DNA of 47,564 bases from assembly GCA_938082375.1 (NCBI GenBank), contig CALKCJ010000014.1, forward strand, positions 1 to 47,564, written 5' to 3'. Below are positions 6,783 through 9,525 of the stretch, piece by piece. A program made the translations under genes and the position numbers. The stretch's first letter is position 1, and each line of letters starts with the position of its first letter. The stretch is from an uncultured Thermomicrobiaceae bacterium. GTDB taxonomy: Bacteria; Chloroflexota; Chloroflexia; Thermomicrobiales; Thermomicrobiaceae. The notes under the pieces were generated by a model. It was not told the origin of the DNA. It did not search any database and saw only the letters and a list, made by a program, of their open reading frames with translations.

Positions 6783-8021
6783 TCAACGCGCGGCGGCGGC
6801 CAGCGCGAGCGTGACGTCCCAGGTCGCTGGGTCGCCCTCGTAGTCGGTGCGCTGGGCCAGGCACGAGGCCACGAGCGCCTGCGAGTCGAAGGCTTGCTCA
6901 GCCTCCTCCGCCTGGGCGAGTGTGGCATGGGTGGCCGGGTGGAGCGGGATGAAGACGGTACAGCAGTCGTCGTCGGGCACGCGGGAGATCGGCTCGGTGC
7001 CGATCTGAACTGCCTCGGCGAGGATTTCGTCCTTGTTGAAGCCCACGAGCGGGCGCAGCAGGGGCAGGTCGGTCACCGCTCCGATCACTCGCATGTTTTC
7101 GAGCGTCTGCGAGCTGACCTGTCCCAGGCTCTCCCCAGTCACCACCGCGCCAGCGCCCTGCTCGTTGGCGAGCGCGGTGGCGATCCGCATCATCAGGCGC
7201 CGGTAAAGCACCACACGCAGGGCCGGCTCGCTAGCCAGCGCGATCTCACGCTGCGCGTCGCCGATCGGCACGATGCTCAGCCGCACTCTTGGTTGATAGC
7301 GCCCGAGGTGCCTGGCGATCTCGACCACCTTCTCGATCGAGATCGGGCGGACGTACGGGTAGGCATGGCAGTGTACCAGCGTCACGAAGCAGCCGCGCTT
7401 CATCATCCGGTAGGCCGCCACTGGCGAGTCGAACCCGCCGGAAAGCAGGACGACGACACGGCCGCTGACACCGACCGGTAGCCCACCCGGCCCCTTCATC
7501 GCCTCGCCGCTCACCAGCGCACGGTCATAGAGGATCTCCACCTGGTAGGTGACATCGGGCGTAGTCAGATTGACCGGCGCACCAGTGCGATCCTTGACGA
7601 GCTGGCCAAGCACACGCTCGAGTTCCGGTGAGGTTAGCGGATAGCTCTTGTTCGTCCGCTTGGCGCGCACGCGATAGCTGCCGGCTGGCGGCCCGAGGAG
7701 ATCGAGGAGCCGGGCCAGCCCATCCTGCAGTTCTTCTATCCGCAACCCGGTCTCAAAAGCGAGCGAGAAGTTTGCGACCCCGAAGACCCAGGCCAGCCGC
7801 TCCCGCACCGCTGGCCACACCTCGAGACCCGGGATCGGGATCACCACCCGAGTATTCCGCACTCGGGCACGCTCATGAGGCACGTCCCGCAGCGCGTGCT
7901 CGATGTTCTGTACCAGCGCGTGCATGAACCAGGGGCGATTCGCCCCCTTTAGCGCAATCTCATGCACCCGGGCCACGACGATCGGCCTATATGTGCGCTC
8001 TACTCGCCCGCCTACGACCAT
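6783..8021 (-). CDS. thiI: tRNA 4-thiouridine sulfurtransferase ThiI
   Basis: A THUMP-containing N-terminal half (EIALKGANRPWF) is followed by an ATP-pyrophosphatase domain with the PP-loop LLSGGFDSPVA near residue 200. GESLGQVSSQTLENM and a Cys pair in PDDDCCTVFIP come later. ThiI adenylates U8 of tRNA and inserts sulfur from a persulfide; in some bacteria it also supplies sulfur for thiazole. At 412 aa it lacks the C-terminal rhodanese domain of the E. coli enzyme, which is usual outside enterobacteria. The ATG at 8021 is preferred; a GTG at 8036 is also in frame. The Rdx/SelW-like gene lies 110 nt upstream on the same strand, and the two may be co-transcribed. Confidence 0.92.
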   Translation of the reverse strand: MVVGGRVERTYRPIVVARVHEIALKGANRPWFMHALVQNIEHALRDVPHERARVRNTRVVIPIPGLEVWPAVRERLAWVFGVANFSLAFETGLRIEELQDGLARLLDLLGPPAGSYRVRAKRTNKSYPLTSPELERVLGQLVKDRTGAPVNLTTPDVTYQVEILYDRALVSGEAMKGPGGLPVGVSGRVVVLLSGGFDSPVAAYRMMKRGCFVTLVHCHAYPYVRPISIEKVVEIARHLGRYQPRVRLSIVPIGDAQREIALASEPALRVVLYRRLMMRIATALANEQGAGAVVTGESLGQVSSQTLENMRVIGAVTDLPLLRPLVGFNKDEILAEAVQIGTEPISRVPDDDCCTVFIPLHPATHATLAQAEEAEQAFDSQALVASCLAQRTDYEGDPATWDVTLALAAAAR

Positions 8022-8131
8022 GCCGTTCGGTATCACCGCCCCTACTCTGAGCCGGAGGAGGGCCCCTCGACTCCTTGCCGCGCCTCGTGCCGGTCACCAG
8101 GGCAGGGCGAGCTGCCAAGCCGCGCAGGTGC

Positions 8132-8377
8132 CTAGGCTCCCAACCGTTCGCCGACCAACCGGATCAGCTCTTCCTCCTCGGGAAAGCGACCGGTCGCGTG
8201 CTTAGAGAAGACCAGCTCCCCGTCCACCGTGACCTCGAATCGTCCACCATCAGACGGCTTCAACGCGATTTCGCCGATATACTCTTCGAACCGATCCAGC
8301 AGCAACTCCACCGCACGGGTGGCACGCTTCTGGTAGCCTCAGCTCGTGCAATATTCGATCCGAATTCGATGCTCCAC
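8132..8377 (-). CDS. Rdx/SelW-like selenoprotein with in-frame TGA (Sec) at codon 13
   Basis: A GTG start at 8377, with GGAGAT 4 nt upstream, opens an 81-codon frame that ends with TAG at 8132. Codons 10-13 read C-T-S-TGA, the CxxU redox motif of the SelW/SelT/SelH (Rdx) family. After the TGA (8339-8341) the homology continues without a break: helix RATRAVELLLDRFEE, then GGRFEVTVDGELVFSK and the family signature TGRFPEEEEL. The length is normal for bacterial Rdx proteins. Family proteins have a thioredoxin-like fold and are thought to be thiol oxidoreductases. A hairpin with bacterial SECIS geometry starts 16 nt after the TGA. A chance nonsense mutation exactly at the Sec position, in an otherwise intact gene, is much less likely. 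Sec insertion requires selABCD elsewhere in the genome. Confidence 0.88.
8308..8322 (-). promoter_or_regulatory. Candidate bacterial SECIS hairpin
   Basis: On the minus strand CCACC pairs perfectly with GGTGG around the 5-nt loop CGTGC; AGC/GCT can add an outer stem. The stem starts 16 nt after the TGA, and the loop starts 21 nt after it. A G is the second loop base. These values fall in the range described for bacterial SECIS elements (loop 16-37 nt downstream, G among the first two loop bases). Confidence 0.65.
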
Positions 8378-8410
8378 GCTGATCTCCTTCCTTGAGCCTC
8401 CAAGCGAGAG

Positions 8411-8416
8411 AGTATA
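8411..8416 (-). promoter_or_regulatory. Candidate -10 box for the selenoprotein gene
   Basis: TATACT on the minus strand, 33 nt before the GTG start, would give a leader of about 27 nt. The -35 region is weak. Confidence 0.4.
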
Positions 8417-8520
8417 CTCACTCGTGCGGCCAAGTCCCACAGCAACCCGGTGAATCCCTGGGATCGGTCACCTCCGCCCAACGTGTGGTCGCTGCCGCAC
8501 AGGTCATCTCTCCCACGCAA

Positions 8521-9375
8521 TCACTGGACTGTGTGACACCAGGTGTTATTGCTCGGGTTCACGTCGGCCCCGGACGGAACCATAGCTTGCGCACAATTGG
8601 TGGCCGGGACTTGCGTGACCGCCGCAGTGAAGCTAAAGAAGGCCGAAGAGTTGGGCGGAAGTGGATTGACCGCCGTGCAGGTCACGCCGGAGCCCGCACC
8701 CGTGATTGAGCAGCTCCAGCCTGGTGCACTGGTCACCGGGCCACTGAACGTCATCGCCCCCTGGCTGACCCAATCGGTGAGTTGCACACCAGGCGGGCAC
8801 GCGCCCGTTCCGATATTCGTGACCCCGATACTGACCGTATAGACACCGTTTTGTGTCGTTGGGGCCATACCTTTGTCAACCAAGAGATCACAGGTGATGG
8901 AACTGGTCGGCGTCGGCGTGGGAGCGGGTGTCGGTGTCGCAGTCGGCACGGGCGTTGGCGTGGGCGTCGGGGTCGTCGTCGGCGCCGCTGTTGGCGTGGC
9001 CGTGGGGAGCGGCGTGGGCGTGGCCGTAGGTACCGGCGTCGGGGTGGGCGTGGGAAGCGGCGTTGGCGTGGCTGTGGGCAGTGGTGTCGGTGTCGCAGTC
9101 GGCACCGGCGTCGGTGTGGCTGTGGGCGTGGGGGTAGGGCGTGGTGGTGTGGCTGTGGGTGTGGGCCCTGCCTCTCCATCCAGCAGCGTCGCTGGTCCGT
9201 GTGGCGTCGCGATCCCGACGGTGGGGATCGGCGGCTTCGTCGGTACCGGGGTTTTGGGAAGAGGAGTCTCAGCCGGGATGGGACTTCCCTTCTCCTTCAG
9301 CGTACCACCGCATGCGCCGAGGATCAGCGCGCCGACGGTGACCATCACGAGTATCCACCAGGAACAGCGCTGCAT
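8521..9375 (-). CDS. Lipoprotein with long Pro/Thr-repeat linker and C-terminal beta domain
   Basis: The ATG at 9375 follows a very good site (GAGGAGGAAG). The signal peptide ends in the lipobox LGAC at residues 18-21, so the protein should be acylated and held on the cell surface. Residues of about 65-165 are a low-complexity PTPTPTATPTPVP linker, typical of Chloroflexi surface proteins. The C-terminal 120 residues (from CDLLVDKG to the end) resemble DUF11-type repeats of cell-surface proteins, with paired Cys, VTNIGTGACP and DVNPSNNTW. The linker probably lifts this domain from the membrane. The partner is unknown. A longer reading frame from GTG 9525 would contain two signal peptides and is not preferred. 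Confidence 0.75.
   Translation of the reverse strand: MQRCSWWILVMVTVGALILGACGGTLKEKGSPIPAETPLPKTPVPTKPPIPTVGIATPHGPATLLDGEAGPTPTATPPRPTPTPTATPTPVPTATPTPLPTATPTPLPTPTPTPVPTATPTPLPTATPTAAPTTTPTPTPTPVPTATPTPAPTPTPTSSITCDLLVDKGMAPTTQNGVYTVSIGVTNIGTGACPPGVQLTDWVSQGAMTFSGPVTSAPGWSCSITGAGSGVTCTAVNPLPPNSSAFFSFTAAVTQVPATNCAQAMVPSGADVNPSNNTWCHTVQ
8900..9170 (-). repeat. Low-complexity repeat coding for the Pro/Thr linker
   Basis: Imperfect short repeats of the GGCGTGGGC/GTCGGCGTG type on the plus strand, read on the minus strand as PTPTPTATP units. Such tracts change length easily by slippage. Confidence 0.8.
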
Positions 9376-9525
9376 CCGCTTCCTCCTCTCTGTCGTGGTC
9401 TGCGGCCCGGTTCCGCTCGGGCAGGGCGGAACGTTCCCCACTACCGGTATGGTCAGGGTCGGAGTCGAGCTCGCCACGAGTACGCCCGAACAAGCTCCGA
9501 GGATCAGTGCGGCGACCATTACCAC
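9376..9525 (-). other. Remnant second lipoprotein signal peptide
   Basis: In the same frame as the lipoprotein gene just downstream, this stretch encodes MVAALILGACSG, a second lipobox signal very close to VGALILGACGG of the gene. It continues with TPTLTIPVVGNVPPCPSG up to the ribosome site of the real gene. It has no good ribosome site, and a TGA stands three codons upstream of its GTG. It looks like a tandem duplication of the gene's 5' end that has decayed. Confidence 0.5.

Follow-up and report, generated by a model that had tools for sequence, protein, structure and literature searches.

The window, a stretch of 47,564 nucleotides that corresponds to contig C14 of a draft genome (3.36 Mb, 99.97% complete), carries on its minus strand a selW-like gene followed by thiI (Table 1). 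With its TGA read through, the frame from 8377 to 8132 is translated as VEHRIRIEYCTSUGYQKRATRAVELLLDRFEEYIGEIALKPSDGGRFEVTVDGELVFSKHATGRFPEEEELIRLVGERLGA*. The initial annotation had described here an 81-codon minus-strand frame with a TGA and a strong ribosome site, and all of this was recovered: 81 sense codons and a TAG, one TGA at codon 13, and the ribosome-binding site AAGGAGAT, whose AGGAG is separated from the GTG start by 6 bases. Under the ordinary code, two ORFs lie over the locus, 8075-8395 on the plus strand and 8260-8520 on the minus strand; a Pfam search with the plus-strand ORF gave no match. That such a gene stays hidden is usual for selenoproteins.

Table 1. Features of the selW-like locus in the window
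Feature	Position	Strand	Description or basis
selW-like gene, Rdx family	8132..8377	minus	GTG start, TAG stop, 81 codons
In-frame TGA, codon 13, putative U of CxxU (C10-T-S-U13)	8339..8341	minus	Sole TGA in the frame; TGA aligned in relatives
Bacterial SECIS hairpin: stem of 5 bp (CCACC/GGUGG) and loop CGUGC, in which a G and a U are conserved	8308..8322	minus	Covariation and codon constraint
Ribosome-binding site AAGGAGAT	8382..8389	minus	Sequence
thiI (tRNA 4-thiouridine synthase), next gene downstream of selW	6783..8036	minus	TIGR00342, E = 3.2e-102; Pfam ThiI

The upstream neighbour (8521-9525, minus strand) has a DUF11 domain and long Pro/Thr repeats (PTPTPT) in its product, which is probably secreted or surface-bound. 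In several g6 genomes, selW is likewise preceded by a similar gene.

The product matched Pfam Rdx (PF10262) with 92.8 bits (cut-off 22.6, E = 1.6e-26, profile positions 1-72 of 74) and TIGR02174 (SelT/SelW/SelH) with 75.7 bits (cut-off 34.2, E = 2.5e-21), scores that chance could not plausibly produce. Its score for the equivalog NF041051 (SelT/SelW/SelH Campylobacter-type), 81.8 bits, is under the curated cut-off of 88, and the product was therefore not filed in that narrow group. Solved CxxC Rdx proteins align over residues 3-79, nearly the full length, with a Cys opposite the TGA, so that C10-T-S-U13, near the N-terminus and following the first strand, falls on the CxxC of 3dex and others; the match to these structures suggests a thioredoxin-like fold. 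The nearest named records were a Thermomicrobiaceae MAG (98% protein identity), bacterium HR26 (91%), and Thermalbibacter longus (86%). The description of the source as a Thermomicrobiaceae-like member of the Chloroflexota is based on these records rather than a genome tree. Apart from the selW-like gene, the source genome has no Rdx gene. The placement in the Rdx family with a CxxU site, made in the initial annotation, agrees with both profiles and with the Cys opposite the TGA in the PDB proteins; its wider label, SelW/SelT/SelH, holds for the family and can be narrowed to SelW-like.

The search of neighbouring genes revealed that thiI, in which no rhodanese domain was matched and whose stop codon is TGA, lies downstream of selW on the same strand in 18 of 18 family loci. 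In 11 loci the two genes are about 55-200 bp apart, and in the other seven about 740-850 bp; in two of these seven an intervening ORF was read, with a response-regulator-like sequence (similarity by eye). This constant arrangement could reflect function, with SelW reducing or supplying ThiI in 4-thiouridine synthesis. Outside the family, however, no locus had a thiI match beside selW (flanks of 1.5-3 kb), and shared descent alone can hold neighbours together, so we consider a functional basis for the adjacency unlikely. The narrower proposal drawn from it, that the SelW of this family uses its selenium to handle sulfur or act as a reductase for ThiI in tRNA 4-thiouridine synthesis, is a little more doubtful still; if true, a bacterial SelW would gain a defined substrate, and the conserved neighbour offers a testable lead to function. 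Adjoining thiI, a chromate-transporter gene (PF02417; 4665-6100, minus strand) appears to be split across different reading frames, with one in-frame TGA. The same gene is one open frame in three sister genomes of the genus (G001:C8, G002:C85, and G003:C6), and the broken copy appears to be a recent pseudogene or an assembly error.

The source genome encodes the selenocysteine machinery, which the initial annotation had proposed to look for. The tRNA-Sec scored 73.5 bits (cut-off 47) and was called by ARAGORN as tRNA-SeC with anticodon TCA; SelA (532 bits) and SelD were both over their cut-offs, and so was SelB, C-terminal part included. SelD, whose gene opens contig C39 (L014:18-1010), itself has an in-frame TGA within LASCAGUAGKLG, which we take to be the known Sec site of this protein. 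Two formate-dehydrogenase-like genes, L115 (G000:C19) and L116 (G000:C7), have one TGA each, in ENQARIUHSSTVPGLG, with a strong GGUCU-loop hairpin just after it. They are probable further selenoproteins of this genome, and the TGA in all three genes is presumably read as selenocysteine. Elsewhere in the genome TGA is an ordinary stop, as in thiI and other neighbouring genes, and none occurs inside the SelA and SelB frames; the genetic code is thus not reassigned.

It could be supposed that UGA is decoded here as Cys or Trp, through reassignment or unspecific readthrough, and other Rdx proteins do have Cys at the corresponding position. Against this stand the long SelA and SelB frames free of TGA, the neighbouring genes that end in TGA, the restriction of in-frame TGA, among the proteins examined, to the known Sec sites of SelD and the FdhA-like proteins, and the presence of tRNA-Sec together with a specific hairpin after the codon. 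We regard this decoding as hardly credible.

The occurrence of the gene was surveyed in 61 genomes, made up of the source genome and 60 relatives. A match was present in 46 of them, and 42 had the TGA form, in which the frame contains just one TGA; gene absences in this survey are soft because the genomes are mostly MAGs. All 42 genomes with the TGA form had SelA or SelB over cut-off (33 had both), and the TGA form was found in none of the 10 genomes without SelA and SelB matches over cut-off (Fisher p = 1.0e-6, a value that overstates independence because the genomes are related). A contig scan for relatives returned 47 loci from Chloroflexota, Gemmatimonadota, Planctomycetota, Myxococcota, and others, all with U at the CxxU place once translated; this is no survey of Cys versus Sec, since the query had C for U and the scan can find a relative only through short peptides shared with that query. 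Every translated relative having the TGA frame had its TGA at the CxxU place. One relative (L101, G050:C364:10000-12900) has a pair of neighbouring selW-like frames, each with a TGA and separated by 63 bases, possibly a tandem duplication.

Downstream of the hairpin, dN/dS was 0.087/1.56 against L020 and 0.26/1.70 against L021. With dN far below dS after the TGA, a decaying frame is excluded, and the decay in close relatives that the initial annotation named as a refutation was not seen.

The hairpin begins 19 bases past the first base of the UGA, the position expected of a bacterial SECIS. According to excerpts of PMC1088965, bacterial SECIS elements feature a guanosine in a small apical loop. 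Among 81 distinct sequences, 63 had a perfect 5-bp stem at +19 and 78 had G as the second loop base; in a few relatives the hairpin is placed elsewhere or is imperfect, and another set of sequences, chiefly from Anaerolineales, is instead compatible with a stem at +15. Covariation was scored in 46 distinct sequences, comprising the Thermomicrobiales set and seven far relatives picked for their divergent stems. All 230 cells of the stem were paired in this set, a figure that does not extend to all 81 sequences, as the 46 were hand-picked among sequences whose hairpin is at +19. Double-sided changes occurred in four of the five stem pairs, in 31 cells versus 8.7 +/- 2.6 in shuffles and a maximum of 4 with slid partners. 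The covarying pairs at A1 columns 21-33 and 24-30 join third codon positions, and amino-acid selection is therefore no explanation for them. In 18 family genomes, the four-fold third bases of codons +6 to +10 showed zero variation, and the other 34 scorable codons of the gene had a mean of 1.28 bits, none of them invariant.

The stem at +19 was found in none of six Cys-type relatives, a control that is indicative only because most of these belong to a side branch (several have ...ECGYE...PWH) and are not strict orthologues. Folding energy was unremarkable (z = -0.54); minimum free energy is not significant as SECIS evidence here, so the covariation and synonymous-site tests were used instead. 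An Rfam scan of the window gave no match, which is neutral toward the SECIS. Our results showed that RNA-level selection acts on this hairpin, which was absent from the initial annotation and adds independent support to the selenocysteine reading.

By computation we established the homology, the conservation of the TGA, the presence of the Sec genes, and the selection on the hairpin RNA. From these sequences we estimate a probability of about 0.97 that the gene product is an Rdx-family selenoprotein of the SelW-like type, with selenocysteine inserted through the SECIS and SelB at UGA codon 13; that this codon encodes selenocysteine is almost certain. The proposal in the initial annotation that the TGA is read as selenocysteine is supported by the Sec machinery, by purifying selection after the TGA, and by the covarying SECIS. 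A true stop, which would leave a decayed Rdx pseudogene or a 12-residue peptide as sole product, would fit the ordinary use of TGA in this genome, but the frame, the TGA, and the protein sequence are kept across 42 genomes belonging to one order as well as in far relatives, dN/dS is low past the TGA, and the hairpin covaries, so this extremely improbable alternative is in effect already refuted.

For the selenoprotein, ribosomes would initiate at the GTG at 8377, and the SECIS hairpin in the mRNA would recruit SelB with Sec-tRNA-Sec at codon 13, where selenocysteine would go in instead of termination. The result would be a thioredoxin-like protein of 81 residues whose Cys-Thr-Ser-Sec site most likely alternates between the selenol and the selenenylsulfide state. 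Its role is most likely that of a thiol-disulfide or peroxide reductase acting on a presumed cellular substrate.

In the literature on Thermomicrobium or Sphaerobacter selenoproteins, subscription papers lying outside the scope, we found no report of the selW-like gene. What is new here is the codon-level evidence for the SECIS and the family-wide downstream thiI. The gene is a well-supported selenoprotein conserved throughout one Chloroflexota family, and a clear case of an in-frame SECIS in which the RNA and protein constraints are separable.

Two kinds of known Rdx proteins can be compared with it. The Cys-type structures 3dex (SAV_2001), 2fa8 (Atu0228), and 2obk belong to the same fold family and carry CxxC, whereas the selW-like product would have Sec in place of the second Cys. 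Eukaryotic Selenoprotein W (2npb) has in common with it the Rdx family and the CxxU idea, although the sequence similarity is weak (E = 0.0028), and its SECIS lies in the 3' UTR (excerpts of PMC1088965), whereas here it is within the coding sequence.

Bacterial SelW-like selenoproteins are described in parts of PMC1088965 (2005) and PMC1794560 (2006), are listed as CxxU PF10262 in an excerpt of PMC13188914 (2026), and were counted as 35 in PMC5029168. As far as the excerpts of the first three sources go, the known proteins and the one predicted here have in common the family, the CxxU site, and one Sec, as well as a SECIS directly after the UGA with a G in its small apical loop. The lineage differs, being Thermomicrobiaceae-like Chloroflexota here and Geobacter, Desulfotalea, Alkaliphilus, Symbiobacterium, and Desulfotomaculum in those excerpts. 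SelW-like CxxU selenoproteins have thus been known in bacteria since 2005-2006, and the selW-like gene is a well-supported further example.
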